The notes beneath the pieces are model-generated. The model was not told the origin of the DNA. It made no database searches and saw only the letters and a program-made list of their open reading frames with translations. A DNA stretch of 29,914 bases from a virus: the IMG/VR virus record IMGVR_UViG_3300025141_000511, positions 1 through 29,914 of that record; one strand, written 5' to 3'. Position 1 is the first letter of the stretch; each line of letters starts with the position of its first letter. The position numbers and the translations under genes were made by a program. Below are positions 3,952 through 29,914 of the stretch, in pieces.

Positions 3952-4848
3952 ATGACATTCACTTACCTAGTTGAAAATTACGAAAGTCAAGCCGTTTCCG
4001 TGGGTTCTTTTATTTTACATGCCGAATTGTCGGGAGAACTCAAAATGTTCGCTGCACGGGTGGGGAAACTTTTCCCCCGTGCCAAGTTCAGTATTTATGT
4101 TAGATACGGGTACAATAACTTATTGGTGTACCACCCGAATAAACCGCTGTGTATGGGGTGGATCGGTTATGGCGACTACACCAACTCAGATACAGCTTCT
4201 GGGTATAAGTATGTTGTGTTTTCCGAAAACATAACAAACTGTCAGTACGCGTCACACTCATGGCAGCGGCACCTAATGTCATCAGGCAATTTAAATCAGG
4301 CAGTTAAGAACGTCAGCAGACACCTACGAGACTACTCTGTGGAAAACGTAGCCAAATCACTGTCGAGGGAAGTAAGAAGCGAATGGCATAAGGAATACAA
4401 CGACAGTAGGAATGAGATATCTATGGCGTTCAATGCCCTACGTTATGACGATGATTTGCGTGATGAACTTATTCGGCTACATGCCGCGGACCATATGTTC
4501 ATTACTGAAAAGCTGCAACGTAAGGTAGATGAACTCGCCGCTGCGCATGATACGGAGCGCGACGCCTCTAAATACAGACTAAATCGTGTGTCGATGGTCT
4601 GTGTTACCTCTACTCTACGTGGTGAACAAGTTTTCGAGGTATGCACGGTACCAAATATCCTAGGGTTCGACGGTCATGGAAATAAATTCATAGCGGAACA
4701 AACATACACCGAAAACGAATTACCAGAAGATTTGAGGGATAAGCTGGGCGTTCTCAATATTACCGAGAAGCAACAGTTCGTGCCGGGTGTGGGATATAAA
4801 CTCACAGATGGTATACTGTTTGTAGCACGGGGAGAAGTTGCTCAGTGA
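3952..4848 (+). CDS. Hypothetical protein with C-terminal domain shared with next gene (298 aa)
   Basis: The frame is open from 3847, but the ATG at 3952 sits just after the stop of the upstream gene (3950) behind AGGAGA, so it is preferred. The N-terminal half is rich in Tyr, Ser and His; residues about 140-210 look helical and charged. The last 90 or so residues contain LPEDLRDKLGVLNI followed by VPGVGYKLTDGILFVARGE. The next protein carries the same pattern (LPGWVQDKLAVLMI, then VSGVG and FWIDVDG). This indicates a shared domain of unknown function. The stop overlaps the GTG start of that next gene. Confidence 0.7.
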   Translation: MTFTYLVENYESQAVSVGSFILHAELSGELKMFAARVGKLFPRAKFSIYVRYGYNNLLVYHPNKPLCMGWIGYGDYTNSDTASGYKYVVFSENITNCQYASHSWQRHLMSSGNLNQAVKNVSRHLRDYSVENVAKSLSREVRSEWHKEYNDSRNEISMAFNALRYDDDLRDELIRLHAADHMFITEKLQRKVDELAAAHDTERDASKYRLNRVSMVCVTSTLRGEQVFEVCTVPNILGFDGHGNKFIAEQTYTENELPEDLRDKLGVLNITEKQQFVPGVGYKLTDGILFVARGEVAQ

Positions 4849-6988: not shown

Positions 6989-7006
6989 GTTAGTCCTAGG
7001 ACTAAC
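6989..7006. promoter_or_regulatory. 18-bp perfect palindrome, copy 3
   Basis: GTTAGTCCTAGGACTAAC, identical to copy 2 including the flanking A and AA. It ends 28 nt before the ATG at 7035, with the AAGGAG site between them. Confidence 0.75.
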
Positions 7007-12401: not shown

Positions 12402-12800
12402 ATGGGTGCGGAACAGGTAGAGTTGGAAAAACTCACTAAGGTTTACTTGAAAATAAAAGACCGTCGAAACGAAATATCTAAACAGTTCAAAGATGAAGAC
12501 GGCGACTTAAAAGAACAGCAGGAGATCATCAAGCGTGCGCTGCTAGACCACTGCAAAGAACATAATGTCGAGAGTGTACGTACGTCAGAAGGACTTTTCT
12601 ATAGAAGTGTCAGGACGCGTTACTGGACCTCGGATTGGGAAAGTATGTACCGGTTTGTCCATGAAAATGGTGTACCGGAGTTCCTCGAAAAACGATTGAA
12701 CCAAGGGAATGTGAAACAGTTCTTGGAAGAAAACCCAGAATGTGTACCCCAAGGTTTGAATGTCGATAGTGAGTACGTAATTTCTATAAGGAAAAAATAA
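12402..12800 (+). CDS. Conserved phage replication-module protein of unknown function (132 aa)
   Basis: ATG preceded by AAGGAGGG; the site lies in a small CCTTC/GAAGG stem (12376-12380 with 12388-12392) that could hide it. The N-terminal half is a long charged helix likely to form a coiled coil (about residues 4-55, with KDEDGDLKEQQEIIKRALLDHCKEH). The C-terminal half includes RTRYWTSDWESMYRF, FLEKRLNQGNVKQFLEENP and PQGLNVDSEYVISIRKK. I recognise this as a recurrent aquatic-phage protein near helicases but know no function. It ends one base into the next gene. Confidence 0.7.
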   Translation: MGAEQVELEKLTKVYLKIKDRRNEISKQFKDEDGDLKEQQEIIKRALLDHCKEHNVESVRTSEGLFYRSVRTRYWTSDWESMYRFVHENGVPEFLEKRLNQGNVKQFLEENPECVPQGLNVDSEYVISIRKK

Positions 12801-13045
12801 TGAATGACCCGGCGTATGTGCCAATAGAGGATGTGTCTAAACATTTTAGTGTTAGCGTATCCACAATCCGCGGTTGGATAAGGCGTGAGCATATCCCCCC
12901 TTCTACATATATCAAGGTTGGGAATACGTATCGGTTCTCTATACCGGCAGTCGTATCTGCACTGTCTTCTGTAGATGATACCCCCACACCAGAAGAAGTT
13001 AGTCTTAGGACTAACTTTAGCCTCAATCCTGACGAGGACTTTTAA
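12800..13045 (+). CDS. Excisionase/MerR-like helix-turn-helix DNA-binding protein
   Basis: 81 aa. Residues 6-55 read as a winged HTH of the excisionase type: YVPIEDVSKHFSVSVSTIRGWIRREHIPPSTYIKVGN..RF. The start overlaps the preceding stop (TAATG). The C-terminal 25 residues are acidic and look disordered; their coding sequence contains palindrome copy 4. Such proteins act as phage excisionases or regulators. With no integrase in view, a regulator is more likely, and the palindromes are natural candidate sites. That link is inference. Confidence 0.75.
   Translation: MNDPAYVPIEDVSKHFSVSVSTIRGWIRREHIPPSTYIKVGNTYRFSIPAVVSALSSVDDTPTPEEVSLRTNFSLNPDEDF
12998..13015. promoter_or_regulatory. 18-bp palindrome, copy 4 (inside HTH gene end)
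   Basis: GTTAGTCTTAGGACTAAC, identical to copy 1 and sharing its flanks (AG before GTTAGT, TT after). It lies in the last codons of the HTH gene and ends 35 nt before the GTG of the next gene. Its presence inside coding sequence argues that the site itself is under selection. Confidence 0.7.
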
Positions 13046-13050
13046 GTAAA

Positions 13051-13698
13051 GTGCTACGTTTAGATATCCACGATAAACTCTTTCGAGATGCGGCGACTAT
13101 TAAATCTACATACTTTGGTGTGTTAGTGAACGCCGCGCCGATATCTAGGTCTTATTATGAGGAGGAATACGATCCAGACAGATTAAATACCCCTGCGTGT
13201 TGGTCCGCCGACACACAAACGCCATCGCCAGATGTACCCTCGCACCAACGCCAATCGGTAAGGTGTATGGATTGTAGACACAACATAAGGGGTTCTGGTT
13301 ATGGAAGTAGCCGTGCGTGCAGGTTTTCACAGCGGCTAGCTATATTACCTGAAGAAGATTTCGGTATAGTTTACCAGTTACGTTTGCCAGCTACCTCTAT
13401 CTTCGGTGAGGCTCGTGACGGTAATCTGCCTATGCAAGCCTATGCTCGTTTTCTCAAAGAACACGACACACCGGCTATAGCGGTTATCACACATATGTAT
13501 TTTGATGATGCTAGCCCTACACCGAAACTTTTTTTCAAACCCAAAAGACCTCTGACAGAGGATGAACTGCGCGAAGCTGGTGGCATGATAAACCATGTCG
13601 ATACAATTCGTGCCATAACATTAGAATTCACACCTTTTGAGAATTCTAAAATATCCCCGTTTGTTGAAACAGACGGTTTTCAATCCACTAAACTCTAG
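13051..13698 (+). CDS. Conserved phage protein with four-Cys site (215 aa)
   Basis: GTG start at 13051, five bases after the HTH stop and 35 nt after palindrome copy 4; a GAGGA lies rather far upstream. Four Cys in the pattern C50-x21-C72-x2-C75-x14-C90 (PACWS, RCMDC, RACRF) suggest a zinc or Fe-S site. A strand-rich region follows (VYQLRLPATSIFG, then AVITHMYFDD and KLFFKPKRPL). I recognise the PACW...C..C...GS...ACRF...QLxLPATSIFG pattern from aquatic phages, always near the SSB-type gene. It may be a partner of the single-strand binding protein; function not established. Confidence 0.7.
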   Translation: MLRLDIHDKLFRDAATIKSTYFGVLVNAAPISRSYYEEEYDPDRLNTPACWSADTQTPSPDVPSHQRQSVRCMDCRHNIRGSGYGSSRACRFSQRLAILPEEDFGIVYQLRLPATSIFGEARDGNLPMQAYARFLKEHDTPAIAVITHMYFDDASPTPKLFFKPKRPLTEDELREAGGMINHVDTIRAITLEFTPFENSKISPFVETDGFQSTKL

Positions 13699-13708
13699 GA
13701 GAATAAGT

Positions 13709-14419
13709 ATGGCTGAAGCCAGCCCAATATTTCTTATCGATGATGTTGAGGCTTTGTGGCCTCGGATTAACCGTTGTTACAGGTTCGACAACAAGAAGAA
13801 AAAGTCGGTCCCTTGCGGCGCCTTTGACGACGGAGCTAAGTACGAAACAAGTTTCCGTATGAATAAGGCCCAAGCTAAAAAACTATGGGCCGCTATGCTT
13901 ACGGCGTATGAAGAAAAGGCAGCTACTCAAGACGGCTGGCCGGATAAGTTTGATAACCCCTTCACCAAGGATGAGGACGGCGCGTTTACTTTTAAAGCGT
14001 CTCTCAAGGGCGCTTACGGTAAAGATGCCACACGTAAACCTACGCAGTACGATGCTAGGAATACCGTACTTGATGAAGATTTCATGCTTACAACGGGTAG
14101 TACGGTTAATATAGCCGTGTCATTCACGCCATACAATGGTAGTATCGGCACCGGAGTATCCTTACGTCTACGTGCAGTACAGGTTATCAGGTACGCTATC
14201 ATGAAAAGCCGTTCCCCCTTTGGTACCACTGAAGGGTTCGCAGTTACAGCAGAGGTTGAAAATCCTTTCGATGCCAACGAGCGTCATCCCACCCCCGAAG
14301 ATACCGAAAGTGGTGACGAAGTAGTTATTGATGAACCGGTGAAGGTCAGTAAAAAGGTCACACCAGCCAAGGCTACGAACAAAGACTTGGATTCATTGGT
14401 GGACGCTTGGGACGACTAA
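13709..14419 (+). CDS. Single-stranded DNA-binding protein (gp2.5/DUF2815-like)
   Basis: 236 aa from the ATG at 13709 behind AGGAG; the open frame extends upstream to 13637 but overlaps the preceding gene. The core has an OB-fold-like, strand-rich region with FTFKASLKGAYG, DARNTVL, TTGSTVNIAVSFTPYN and GVSLRLRAVQVI, as in DUF2815 and T7 gp2.5-type proteins. The C-terminus is acidic and ends DSLVDAWDD, the typical acidic tail by which phage and bacterial SSBs recruit polymerase and helicase. It coats single-stranded DNA during replication and recombination. Followed by a structured non-coding gap. Confidence 0.8.
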   Translation: MAEASPIFLIDDVEALWPRINRCYRFDNKKKKSVPCGAFDDGAKYETSFRMNKAQAKKLWAAMLTAYEEKAATQDGWPDKFDNPFTKDEDGAFTFKASLKGAYGKDATRKPTQYDARNTVLDEDFMLTTGSTVNIAVSFTPYNGSIGTGVSLRLRAVQVIRYAIMKSRSPFGTTEGFAVTAEVENPFDANERHPTPEDTESGDEVVIDEPVKVSKKVTPAKATNKDLDSLVDAWDD

Positions 14420-14433
14420 AGTAAATACATATA

Positions 14434-14515
14434 ACTACGGCCATACATTTTTTGGGTTAGCCGGTGGGTGACTTTCCGCCGGGGTAAGCACCTCTATAAA
14501 GTGTATGGTCGTAGT
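14434..14515 (+). ncRNA. Candidate structured RNA / cis-regulatory element
   Basis: 82-nt element in the 116-bp gap before the primase gene. Outer stem of 18 consecutive pairs (14434-14451 with 14498-14515), two of them G-U. Inner stem CCGGTGG (14461-14467) with CCGCCGG (14476-14482), one G-U, loop GTGACTTT. A short 4-bp helix (14454-14457 with 14490-14493) is possible, and GGTG (14463-14466) could alternatively pair with CACC (14489-14492), a pseudoknot or switch possibility. G-U pairs point to RNA. It ends about 20 nt before the primase start. It matches no riboswitch class I can recall. Confidence 0.6.
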
Positions 14516-14535
14516 ATCTCTTCAAAGGAAATGGG

Positions 14536-17361
14536 ATGGATACAAATGATTTTCTTGGGGAAGCGTTAGGAGACGATGGGTTTTATTGTGTGTTTGCCTC
14601 GCACGCTACGGAAAACAAGCGTGTACAAAATTTCTATACCTCTAAAGACGCTCTCATAACCGCAGCCGAACAATTAGATAAAGATGGGTTCGATACATAT
14701 TTTGCACTAGCTACCTTCCATACCGATAACTCCCGAAAAGCTGATAACGCGCACCAACTTAAATCTTTCTTTCTGGATTTGGATTGTGGTCCCGATAAGG
14801 AATACGCAGATCAATCCGCCGCCTTATCCGCGCTACAAAAATTCTGCATATCGCTAGACATACCTAAACCCACGCTGGTTAGTTCCGGTCGTGGAATACA
14901 CGCATATTGGTTTTTGTCAGAACCTATTAGTGTACAGGAGTGGTCGCAAACTGCGGAGCAGCTAAAGGTCGCATGTGCTAAATATAACTTATTAGCAGAC
15001 CCTGCCGTAACCGCCGACGCAGCACGGGTGCTACGTGTTCCTCATACACACAACCATAAGGACGATCCGCCGACTGAAGTCATCCAGTTGGGTAGCAACA
15101 TACTCTCAGCACCAATAAATCTGGACGTATTCGTTGAGTATCTTGCCGATGTGCCGATACCAGTTCCGACGAAACATATTCCAGTGGGTAGTAACGCTGT
15201 GATGGATGCGCTACTCGGCAACAGAAAAAACGTATTCAAAGATATAATGGTGAAGACCCGCAACGGTGTAGGTTGTGGGCAGTTGGCGTACATACTAACA
15301 AAGCAGGATGAAGTCAGCGAACCACTCTGGCGTGCGGGACTATCTATAGCAAAATTTTGTGAAGACGCGGATCGCGCAGCGCGGAAGATATCGGAAAACC
15401 ATCACGAGTTCAGTTTAAAAGACACGATGGATAAGATGGATAGGATCAAAGGTCCTTACCATTGTAGCAGGTTTGACGAATATAACCCCGATATATGTAC
15501 CGAATGTTCGCACTGGGGGGAGGTGAAATCACCCATAGTCCTCGGTAGTAGGGTGCGCGAGGCGACGGAAGAAGACAATATCGTGGAAGCCCCGGCTCTT
15601 GAATTACCTGATACACCCGTTAACACATACAAAATACCGTCCTACCCAGAGCCTTATTTCAGAGGTGCAAACGGAGGGATATATAAGAGGGTTAGCTTAC
15701 CAGACGGAAGCATAGAGGAAGCTCAAATATACCATAATGATTTATATGTAGATAAACGGTTGTGGGATAAGGAACAAGGCGAGAGCCTTGTCATGAAACT
15801 ACACCTACCTCGCGATGGTGTAAGGGAATTTACCATACCGTTTTCGGCGGTGAATTCCCGCGACGAATTTAGAAAAGAAATGTCACATTACGGTGTGGCC
15901 ATAGGAAAAATGGAGTTACTTATGACATATACGAATTCTTGGGTTAACGAACTGCAAGCGGATAGTGCAGCGGAAGAAGCCCATAAACAGTTTGGTTGGA
16001 CTGACGATGATTGTGAATTATTCATTCTAGGCAACCAAGCGATATCTGCAAATCAGGTTGATTTTAACCCGCCATCCAGCCAGACCACCGCGTTGTTCCC
16101 GTCTTTTGAGCCTAAAGGTACGCTGCAAGATTGGAAAGACACCATAAATTTCTATAACCGTGACGGGTTTGAAGTACATCAGTTCGTGGTCGGTTCTGCT
16201 TTCGGTAGCGCGCTTATGAACCTAGCCCCTGTGAATTGCGCGGCTTTACATCTACACAGTAAGGAGTCTGGTGTAGGTAAGACGACTGCTATGTCTGCTG
16301 CGGTCTCGGTATGGGGTAGACCCGAAGACCTTGTTCTACGCAAAGAAGATACGTTTAACACTAAGATGCACCGGGGCGAGATATACCACAGTCTACCTCT
16401 GTACTTAGACGAGTTAACCGAAGCTAAAGCGTCTGAACTAAGTAACATGGCATACCAATTAACAGGTGGTCGCCAACGCGGTCGAATGACAAGCAGTGGT
16501 AATGCTGAACGGTACCGCGGAGACGCTTGGAAGTTGTTGGCTGTAACTACCGGGAATACCAGCATCATCGAACGAATAAGTATGACGAAAGCTATGCCAA
16601 AAGCGGAAGCGCAGCGCATATTGGAAGTCAAGGTAGACCGCATGTTCGATGAGGTTGAGGATAAAAAAATACAGGATGATTTCCTCGCAGCCGTAAATAA
16701 CAACTACGGTCACGCGGGTAAAATATACATCCAATACATTCTGAACCACATGGATGACGTAAAAGAGATATTGGAGCAAGTGCGGGAAAGGGTTGACAAG
16801 GGAGCGGGGCTTACCTCCGAAAATAGGTTTTGGTCTGCTTTCGTTACGAACACTATGGCGGGTCTTATGCTGGCAAAAAAGGCTGGACTTATAGACTACG
16901 ACATAAAGAAGTTATTCAAGTGGGCTATAAACATGCTCGAATATAGTAAGAACTATGTCTCTGGCATGAACACCTCGGTCGAGGAGACCTTGAACGACTA
17001 CATTATGGAGCATTACTCCAACGTCTTATGGATCAAAAGCACGGATGATTTACGTAAAAAAGATAATGCTGGGATGGACTCCCTGATCGTGCCGGAAGCA
17101 CTGCCGCGAGGTCAGATGGTGGCTAGATATGAAACCGATTTGAAACGAGCGTATCTCCTACCGAAACCCCTTCGGGTATGGTGCGGTGAACAGCAAATCA
17201 ACTATGCCTCGTTTGTCGAGGACCTACAGAAAAAACTGGGAGCTACTAAAATTAAAATGCGGTTGAGCAAAGGTACGCATATGCAGCTACCGCCAACCAC
17301 CGTGCTAGTGGTCAAATGTGATCTGGAGGTAGACGATGTGCCAAGGGGTGTTGAAGACTGA
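14536..17361 (+). CDS. Primase-helicase: AEP (PrimPol-like) primase fused to DUF927-type ATPase
   Basis: 941 aa, ATG behind AAAGGA. The N-terminal AEP primase has FFLDLDCG (DxD, D81 and D83), SSGRGIHAYW (116-125, His122) and VTADAARVLRVPHTHNHK (158-175, the third catalytic Asp). A Cys/His cluster near 310-326 (C, C, C, H around ICTECSHW) may bind zinc. The C-terminal helicase domain is DUF927-like: SKESGVGKTT Walker A (575-584), LYLDE Walker B (D625, E626) and TTGN sensor 1 (about 675). It should prime and unwind DNA at the phage fork, replacing separate DnaG and DnaB proteins. The next small gene overlaps its end by 26 bases. Confidence 0.9.
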   Translation: MDTNDFLGEALGDDGFYCVFASHATENKRVQNFYTSKDALITAAEQLDKDGFDTYFALATFHTDNSRKADNAHQLKSFFLDLDCGPDKEYADQSAALSALQKFCISLDIPKPTLVSSGRGIHAYWFLSEPISVQEWSQTAEQLKVACAKYNLLADPAVTADAARVLRVPHTHNHKDDPPTEVIQLGSNILSAPINLDVFVEYLADVPIPVPTKHIPVGSNAVMDALLGNRKNVFKDIMVKTRNGVGCGQLAYILTKQDEVSEPLWRAGLSIAKFCEDADRAARKISENHHEFSLKDTMDKMDRIKGPYHCSRFDEYNPDICTECSHWGEVKSPIVLGSRVREATEEDNIVEAPALELPDTPVNTYKIPSYPEPYFRGANGGIYKRVSLPDGSIEEAQIYHNDLYVDKRLWDKEQGESLVMKLHLPRDGVREFTIPFSAVNSRDEFRKEMSHYGVAIGKMELLMTYTNSWVNELQADSAAEEAHKQFGWTDDDCELFILGNQAISANQVDFNPPSSQTTALFPSFEPKGTLQDWKDTINFYNRDGFEVHQFVVGSAFGSALMNLAPVNCAALHLHSKESGVGKTTAMSAAVSVWGRPEDLVLRKEDTFNTKMHRGEIYHSLPLYLDELTEAKASELSNMAYQLTGGRQRGRMTSSGNAERYRGDAWKLLAVTTGNTSIIERISMTKAMPKAEAQRILEVKVDRMFDEVEDKKIQDDFLAAVNNNYGHAGKIYIQYILNHMDDVKEILEQVRERVDKGAGLTSENRFWSAFVTNTMAGLMLAKKAGLIDYDIKKLFKWAINMLEYSKNYVSGMNTSVEETLNDYIMEHYSNVLWIKSTDDLRKKDNAGMDSLIVPEALPRGQMVARYETDLKRAYLLPKPLRVWCGEQQINYASFVEDLQKKLGATKIKMRLSKGTHMQLPPTTVLVVKCDLEVDDVPRGVED

Positions 17362-28246: not shown

Positions 28247-29914
28247 CTATCTACCCTCTAATACCCGTAATATTGTATCTGTTTTATCTTCTATAAGTCC
28301 ACCAGCCGCGGCTTGTCTTGGCTCCCCCGAAGTACCATAAGGCGAAGCCTGTTCATAAAGGTTCCTCTGCGGTCCAGCAAATATACTATCACCGAACGGA
28401 TCATATACATACTCTATTTTTTTCGGGTCCGGTGTATCTACTTTAACCGGTGTTGTTTCTAGTAATTGACCCATAAACTGCTGGTCCGCTGCTTCTTGCC
28501 GTCTTTGATTTTCCGCCGCTGTTTGCGTAGCAATAGCTGTTTGTACGGCTGTTTGCGTAGCCGTTTGTGCAGCCGTTTGTGCAGCCGTTTGTGCAGCCGT
28601 TTGTGCAGCCGTTTGTGCAGCCGTTTGTGCAGCCGTTTGTGCAGCCGTTTGTGTGGCTAGTTGACCTTGTATCCCTGTAGCTGCGAATGGGCTTGTAGTG
28701 GCAATATCTGCTCTAGAAGTAGTACCTGCCATAACATCTTGTAACATAGTTAGGTCAGCTTGATCTACTATCTTATCCCCTGTTACGTCGTACCCCAATT
28801 GTTTGGGAGTTAGGGCATAAGTTCCAGCATCAGCGGCCATTTGGTCAGCAATAAGACTTTCAACTATAGCTATATCGTCTTGTGTTACATCTTGTCCGGG
28901 TACCCCAAGTGTATTGGTTAAAAGATTATATGAAGCTGTAGGTAGATATTTTTCTATCGCAGCGGGTAACTGAGATTCGTCACCTGCCCCAACAAACCTA
29001 TCTATATCGGCTGAAACCGGGTCTAGTATCCCTAAGTCTTTGTAGGCTTGCCTAGCTTCACCCTCTAGAATATATCTGGGGTCTACATCGGTTATAATTC
29101 TACCGAATGTATCTTCTTCTAGGGGGTCCGCAGATACCCCAACGTATTTAGCAACTTCCGCATCAAACGCAGCGGCACCTTCAGGATCAGTCTCGGCATC
29201 GGGGCGCATATAACCCTGATCTGCAAACTTAGCTATTACCTCATCTGTAGTTACTTCGCGTAGTCCACGATAATCTTGTATTACTTTGGTTTGGTCTGCT
29301 TGGAAAGTAGGCCCACCTTGCCCCGTTAGTGCCGCTATTTGCTCTGGCGTAGCGGGAACACCCCCCAAAAGTTCGGTTACTTTGTCGGAAGTAAGCTGTC
29401 GTTTATCTATGTGAGATATAAGCGCGCTGTTTATATCGGCAGGGGAAGACACACCTTCGTCTAATCCTGCTACAAAAGAGGCTAACTCATCAGGACCTAG
29501 TGTGTAACCAGCTTCGGCAGCGATACGATTTGCGTCGGCTGTACCGAAAGTAGCGTTATCGACAACATCACGTATAGTATCTAGGTCTAAAGTGTTTTCC
29601 CCAGTGTAAGGCAATAATTGATCGTCTGTAGGCGTAAAATCAGTCACGCCCGGTATGTTATTTAATTCGGTATCCGCATCGGCAAACGCTGCCTTAACTT
29701 CATCTAGCGTAGTGTACTTATCGGGGTTTGCAGTGTTTAAAACTTCAGTTGCAACATTTAGGGTGTCACGCCATACCCCTTCGGAATCTCGCTCAAAATC
29801 AAGGAGTGTACCATCGTCAGCAAAAAACTCATTCCACCCAAATACATCTTTTAACTTATCTTCACCTGCTTGTTGTGTAGCCGAATCATAATTAGGATTA
29901 CTGGGGTCTTGAGA
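28247..29914 (-). CDS. Large Asp/Ala-rich virion-type protein, 5' end outside window
   Basis: At least 555 residues. The frame is open to the last base of the window, so the GTG at 29647 is internal and not the start. Repeated helical segments (DEVKAAFADADTELN, DEVIAKFADQGYM...EVAKYVGV, PEQIAALTG) suggest divergent internal repeats. DVTGDKIVDQADLTML, near the middle, resembles a dockerin/EF-hand calcium loop (D, T, D, D, D spacing). A QTAA tetrapeptide run follows, then a Gln-rich linker and a C-terminal AAAGGLIEDKTDTIL tail like the AGG motifs of the next genes. Probable structural or adhesion-related virion protein. Confidence 0.65.
   Translation of the reverse strand, partial: SQDPSNPNYDSATQQAGEDKLKDVFGWNEFFADDGTLLDFERDSEGVWRDTLNVATEVLNTANPDKYTTLDEVKAAFADADTELNNIPGVTDFTPTDDQLLPYTGENTLDLDTIRDVVDNATFGTADANRIAAEAGYTLGPDELASFVAGLDEGVSSPADINSALISHIDKRQLTSDKVTELLGGVPATPEQIAALTGQGGPTFQADQTKVIQDYRGLREVTTDEVIAKFADQGYMRPDAETDPEGAAAFDAEVAKYVGVSADPLEEDTFGRIITDVDPRYILEGEARQAYKDLGILDPVSADIDRFVGAGDESQLPAAIEKYLPTASYNLLTNTLGVPGQDVTQDDIAIVESLIADQMAADAGTYALTPKQLGYDVTGDKIVDQADLTMLQDVMAGTTSRADIATTSPFAATGIQGQLATQTAAQTAAQTAAQTAAQTAAQTAAQTAAQTATQTAVQTAIATQTAAENQRRQEAADQQFMGQLLETTPVKVDTPDPKKIEYVYDPFGDSIFAGPQRNLYEQASPYGTSGEPRQAAAGGLIEDKTDTILRVLEGR
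28561..28644 (-). repeat. 12-bp tandem repeat encoding QTAA
   Basis: Seven perfect copies of CCGTTTGTGCAG (+ strand sense), with one degenerate copy after (28645-28656) and diverged copies before (about 28525-28560). In the - strand protein this gives seven QTAA units, then QTAT and QTAV. Being in-frame, expansion changes length by four residues per unit. Confidence 0.9.

Follow-up and report, generated by a model that had tools for sequence, protein, structure and literature searches.

A hairpin occupying positions 14434–14515 (+ strand) of a 29,914-nt stretch of viral DNA (IMG/VR record IMGVR_UViG_3300025141_000511; hereafter, the window) is a real RNA structure, conserved by position between the genes for a single-stranded-DNA-binding protein (SSB) and a primase-helicase. 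Relatives carry the int-alpA RNA (Rfam RF02996) at this same gene border, and the window hairpin is most likely, by inference from sequence comparison, a rearranged descendant of an int-alpA-type RNA that kept the outer stem, tail and spacing and lost the junction core. As an intercistronic leader of this descent, it probably acts in cis on translation of the primase-helicase gene.

The hairpin and its genomic surroundings

Folding and alignment within the window's clade placed 18 consecutive pairs in the outer stem (14434–14451 with 14498–14515), exactly two of them G-U (14440–14509 and 14448–14501), and a GC-rich inner stem, CCGGUGG(G)/(U)CCGCCGG (14461–14468 with 14475–14482), of 7 bp plus a terminal G-U pair, both much as the initial annotation had described them from the sequence; one of the seven inner base pairs is U-G. 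The structure of minimum free energy (MFE) contains a further helix between these stems, GGGUU (14454–14458) with AGCACC (14487–14492), in which A14490 is bulged, and an apical loop, UGACUU (14469–14474), that is identical in all five clade phages. An alternative pairing of GGTG (14463–14466) with CACC (14489–14492, within the middle helix) had also been proposed; it is possible, and its eight bases are invariant in the same five phages, so that the clade offers no test of it. The + strand folds at −43.5 kcal/mol (z −6.1), a value that none of 200 dinucleotide shuffles equaled, compared with a weaker −27.5 kcal/mol (z −3.2) for the − strand.

The hairpin fills the gap between the two genes. 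Upstream lies a T7 gp2.5-like SSB gene (13709–14419, + strand; phrog_112, E 3e-18; Pfam SBB_T7 below cut-off), whose start was read as ATG 13709 (the ORF list begins at TTG 13637) and whose end precedes the hairpin by 14 nt. Downstream, a DUF927-type primase-helicase gene of 941 aa (14536–17361, + strand; PF06048, E 6e-26; phrog_25314, E 6e-109; phrog_8841 DNA primase/helicase, E 6e-42) starts 20 nt after the last hairpin base, as originally estimated. The intervening 3′ tail, ATCTCTTCAAAGGAAATGGG, holds the Shine-Dalgarno (SD) sequence AAGGA of the primase-helicase gene (14525–14529, + strand, read from the sequence; 6 nt before ATG 14536). No ORF of at least 60 aa crosses the hairpin; a conserved coding frame there had been named as counter-evidence by the initial annotation. 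An intrinsic terminator was considered and rejected, as 14434–14535 contains no terminator-like site and the tail ATCTCTTCAAAGG has no T run after the GC-rich stem. A promoter search confined to the sigma-70 type returned no site in 13600–15200. The region has no DNA similarity to deposited phages; the cultured phages with related primases, namely Pseudomonas phage Rollin and Rhizobium phages, are distant, with only ~20 nt ahead of the primase gene in Rollin and a different hairpin in a Rhizobium phage.

Other repeats and hairpins were observed in the window. An 18-nt near-perfect palindrome, GTTAGTC(C/T)TAGGACTAAC, occurs in four copies (931–948, 2865–2882, 6989–7006 and 12998–13015), three of which lie shortly upstream of a gene start, and once each in the examined portions of clade members L001, L007, L051 and L052; it is a candidate operator for a small HTH protein (12800–13045) or a candidate RNA hairpin. 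Right after one copy, and directly before the gene at 997–2184, lies a second intercistronic hairpin, GGGGTGGGGTAAGACCCACCCC (955–976). A twelve-base tandem repeat (28523–28677) inside the − strand ORF 28247–29647 translates into an AAQT repeat of a putative virion protein.

Int-alpA-like RNAs at the primase border of relatives

Searching with the window primase identified 52 viral loci, which further scans with the relatives expanded to ~190; extraction of all upstream regions gave 79 that were non-redundant. Folding z-scores fell below −2 in 61% of these regions; among 468 control windows drawn from these loci, 8.5% did so. Most regions carried a three-way junction, P1 (9–10 bp)–UA–P2–GAARA–P3–CU–P1′, and at the primase border of four loci the Rfam int-alpA model reached its gathering score (L037, 40.3 bits; L046, 38.5; L034, 36.8; L006, 35.8), with two others under the cut-off of 35.8 bits (L038, 35.7; L043, 29.8). 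The initial description of the element as unrecognised thus holds for the window copy, which has no Rfam match, and not for its counterparts at the same place in relatives.

A model built from 14 of the relatives' three-way-junction copies (R1) matched >40 loci and recovered int-alpA from a Klebsiella phage record as well (E 4e-4). Thirteen of 17 phage records tested contained a single R1 copy, and the window none. A scan with a DNA pattern yielded 102 viral contigs, and R1 matched 76 of 80 loci, nearly all directly ahead of the primase start. In an alignment of 52 R1 matches, 98.2% of cells were paired, 151 cells were double-changed and 15 of 17 pairs had changed on both sides, counts that are biased toward the model structure because the alignment had been fitted to the model; with partners slid as controls, pairing fell to 32–56%. 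A MAFFT alignment of 14 sequences agrees with this picture (97.3% paired; 11 of 22 pairs). The relatives' arms hence diverge with compensation, in line with the structured RNA initially claimed.

P1 of the relatives contains ten G-U and no A-C cells, and the + strand folds with lower energy in 67 of the 79 upstream regions, both of which favor an RNA over a DNA hairpin. As shown by this comparison, the relatives' element is under RNA-level selection. The argument that retained G-U pairs signal an RNA function thus finds support in the P1 helices of relatives; in the window clade, the outer stem provides only one G-U to A-U change. Spacing is similarly constrained, with a median of 13.5 nt from the upstream stop codon to P1 and of 22 nt (range 18–29) from P1′ to the ATG, the window values being 14 and 20 nt; comparison thus shows the placement of the relatives' element, flush against the ribosome-binding site (RBS), to be fixed. 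Some clades have simple hairpins at the primase slot in place of the junction, and so do L123 and L124, sisters of the junction-bearing L002 with 87–90% primase identity, which exemplify such decay among close relatives. In L008, L011, L015, L021 and their kin, whose slot hairpin is simple and perfect, the end of the SSB gene, around 100 nt upstream of the primase gene, is spanned by an inverted repeat, GTTCGATTATTGA...AGTAATCGAAC, that could form an alternative structure together with the slot hairpin.

RF02996 gave no match in the window at gathering score (35.8 bits) or at E ≤ 5, and 0 matches in its own genome; R1 likewise found nothing at 14434. The sole hit of an Rfam search of the window, a microRNA precursor with E 3.2, was dismissed as a chance match. 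The window copy lacks the three-way junction with its UAG, CGAAAAG and CUG joins as well as P2 and P3, and its MFE structure shows a single inner hairpin. A profile of the P1 arms and first tail bases, derived from 27 distinct relatives with window sequences excluded, nevertheless found its best window site at 14433/14508, with 28.0 bits, a score within the range of the family members themselves; by comparison, the runner-up on the + strand had 15.1 bits, the top − strand site 21.0 bits and the highest of 100 shuffled windows 24.5 bits. By this profile, the base of the 5′ arm, AACTACGGC (14433–14441, + strand), appears homologous to P1 of the int-alpA-like RNAs of phages, and the base of the 3′ arm plus tail, GTCGTAGTATCTCTT (14508–14522, + strand), to their P1′ and tail, GYCGYRGTRTCTYT; the 3′ part scored 17.3 bits, top among all + strand positions (next, 9.3). 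Placement is also int-alpA-like, i.e. intercistronic and ~20–40 nt before a co-directional start codon (20 nt in the window, 19–42 nt in satellites). The reading as a rearranged descendant follows from the best profile site exceeding all shuffles and from the same distances to both genes.

Covariation within the window clade itself is weak. The clade has five members, and a DNA scan for more returned the same four contigs only. Besides the single informative change in the outer stem, the middle helix contains one informative pair (14457–14488, as UG, CG or UA), and the inner stem shows one break (pair 14463–14480, in L052). As the outer stem contributes so little, the case for the window structure rests on the relatives: the covariation check that had been suggested for homologous phage intergenic regions is passed by the family, but not by the window clade alone.

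Loop pairing with the tail and the ribosome-binding site

The tail of junction-bearing copies contains, 4–11 nt past P1, a segment that pairs with the P3 loop. Loop/tail pairs in phages were ACCGA/UCGGU, GCCGA/UCGGC, GCCGG/CCGGC, GUGCCG/CGGCAC, GUGUCG/CGGCAC and UGCACC/GGUGUA, and those in satellites GCCUUA/UAAGGC, ACCUUA/UAAGGU, CCCUA/UAGGG, CCUUC/GAAGG and CUCCU/AGGAG. On a custom energy scale, a simplified stacking sum, own loop/tail combinations were compared with swapped ones, and as good a result arose in 0 of 5000 permutations for 46 sequences, in 1 of 5000 when only one sequence per distinct loop was kept, and in 0 of 5000 for nine satellite copies. Comparison thus shows the loop/tail pseudoknot to covary in the wider family, with six junction-bearing relatives (L003, L004, L006, L042, L043 and L092) having no convincing loop/tail pairing. 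Pairing of the tail with the GAAAAG of J23 instead of the P3 loop was also tried; it suits some marine copies, but was rejected since it fails for L090, L162 and the satellite L201.

One clade (L216, L218, L224, L230, L244 and others) differs in its upstream gene, which is an ORF of ~78 aa and not SSB. Here, the P3 loop (mostly GCCGUC) can pair with a GACGGC-type site between SD and AUG (AGGACGGCUAUG) in 18 of 18 distinct sequences, over 5–8 bp, and most of these offer the loop a second, similar partner sequence upstream. Changes in the loop are tracked by its partners, e.g. UCCGUC with GACGGA in L216 and GCCGUA with the upstream UACGGC in L268. In L216, L218, L224, L244 and their kin, two copies of the GACGGC-type sequence separate the int-alpA-like RNA from the primase ATG, of which the second overlaps the spacer between SD and start codon. 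Satellite int-alpA RNAs have loops (CCUUA, CCCUA, CCUUC, CUCCU) that fit a purine tract upstream and, in most cases, the true SD too; the SD matches are weaker evidence, because the SD is purine-rich and a loop complementary to an SD-like decoy fits the SD by default. For the window, pairing of the apical loop with the SD (UUUCC/GGAAA) was discarded as evidence, as 1412 of 5000 shuffled loops (28%) did equally well.

Two further contexts were noted among these copies. In L200, L203, L204 and L209, a small hairpin (GCGT...ACGC or ACGT...ACGT) whose loop contains the SD lies between a satellite int-alpA RNA and the start codon, immediately ahead of the latter. In L207, a Planctomycetota bin, an int-alpA-like RNA at 4248 lies ahead of a gene for a DnaD-like/replication-initiation-like protein (phrog_2514, E 6e-7), which gives it a replication-related setting outside Proteobacteria.

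Proposed function and comparison with known systems

Taken from these comparisons, the following scheme may be proposed. The ancestral element would have had P1 closing a three-way junction (UA–P2–GAARA–P3–CU) and, behind it, a tail engaged in a pseudoknot with the P3 loop. Within the window clade, P1 would have grown to 18 bp and one GC-rich hairpin would have taken the place of the junction core, with loss of P3. The apical loop may pair either with the upstream tail, leaving the RBS free, or with the RBS, blocking it, the two states being mutually exclusive; the leader would thereby adjust or toggle how strongly the gene after it, in this case the primase-helicase, is translated relative to the preceding SSB gene. 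Translational control by the window copy is extrapolated from the relatives, the window itself providing evidence for position, outer stem and tail only. Of the three functions initially considered, a cis-regulator fits best, because the element lies 18–29 nt before the start codon in relatives and the loop of a sister clade is complementary to the RBS; an origin hairpin and a free small RNA are less supported.

An alternative that we consider a minor possibility is a processing or stability element, i.e. an RNase III-type cut or a block to 3′ exonucleases that separates and stabilizes the SSB mRNA from the primase mRNA. The location between the gene for a likely abundant protein and that for an enzyme, the 18-bp stem of the window and the retention of a perfect hairpin alone at the slot in other clades, where the hairpin as such is seemingly enough, would suit such a role. 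P1 in most relatives is nevertheless short for RNase III at 9–10 bp, processing would need neither the invariant junction bases nor the loop/tail pseudoknot, and the upstream gene is not SSB either in the L216 clade or in satellites. Quite improbable, in our estimate, is a free small or antisense RNA like P4 CI or P1 C4, which would be released from the transcript by processing and target phage or host mRNAs in trans: Rfam classes int-alpA as 'Gene; sRNA', and P4 CI RNA governs replication genes and pairs with seqA and seqC (PMC4825925), much as int-alpA-like loops have two complementary sites nearby, but those sites lie in cis, adjoining the element, the spacing to the next start codon is fixed (18–29 nt), 13600–15200 holds no sigma-70-type promoter-like site, nor the hairpin a terminator-like one, and P4 has no Rfam int-alpA match.

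The unmatched core and the negative Rfam and R1 searches would also be expected of an ordinary intercistronic hairpin of the window clade with no int-alpA ancestry, its likeness in arm and tail being coincidental; we hold this to be highly improbable given a profile score within the family range and above all 100 shuffles, and distances to both genes that equal those of relatives. Finally, the position between SSB and primase genes would befit a DNA-level structure, such as a replication origin or a single-strand hairpin recognized by the adjacent SSB or primase proteins. The strand asymmetry of folding, the G-U over A-C excess in P1 and the unrelated genes adjoining satellite copies make this extremely unlikely.

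A cis-acting leader hence remains our preferred reading of the window hairpin. More tentatively, int-alpA-type RNAs might constitute a class of cis-acting two-partner switches of phages and satellites, in which the loop offered by a three-way junction has two alternative partners, an upstream tail copy and the RBS of the next gene, and a signal (protein, ligand or ribosome traffic) times translation of a primase or satellite regulator, the window copy being a minimal or rearranged offshoot. RF02996 is on file as a small RNA without known function, and the literature searched mentions it without assigning one; the comparison gives it a common position in marine phages directly ahead of the primase-helicase gene, and adds RBS-complementary loops and a covariation-backed pseudoknot, which may already figure in the original int-alpA description. 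What was an orphan RNA family could then be tested as a translational switch for phage replication and satellite genes, and its members can apparently decay to a plain hairpin, as seen here.

Among known systems, int-alpA RNA itself is closest. At the corresponding gene border, the element of relatives attains the gathering score of this family and shares its architecture (P1–UAG–P2–CGAAAAG–P3–CUG–P1′); in both groups the RNA sits between two co-directional genes, 20–40 nt before a start codon, and forms a loop/tail pseudoknot. Unlike the phage copies, those of satellites occupy the gap between int and the gene adjoining it, upstream of alpA and 19–42 nt before a start codon, not ahead of a primase gene, and the window copy differs in having no junction or P3, a P1 of 18 bp and no score. 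The P4 CI/P1 C4 antisense RNAs (RF01695), with their c4-a1b1/isrK targets, are likewise phage or satellite RNAs before replication genes in which one loop has two complementary sites. P4 CI RNA works in antisense and brings transcription to a premature end (PMC4825925), whereas pairing here would occur in cis with tail and RBS; neither RF01695 nor c4-a1b1 matched the window or the relatives searched. P4 was itself considered as an int-alpA carrier and rejected, its leader holding isrK/c4-a1b1 instead. A third parallel is the translational operator of T4/RB69 gene 32, a pseudoknot 5′ of the RBS that is bound by the phage SSB protein (PMC535899, PMC3014915). Both are phage pseudoknots in the intercistronic leader 5′ of a replication-gene RBS and both involve an SSB gene, a neighbor that other int-alpA copies lack; in T4/RB69, however, SSB is itself controlled, while here the SSB gene lies upstream and the primase is the putative controlled gene.
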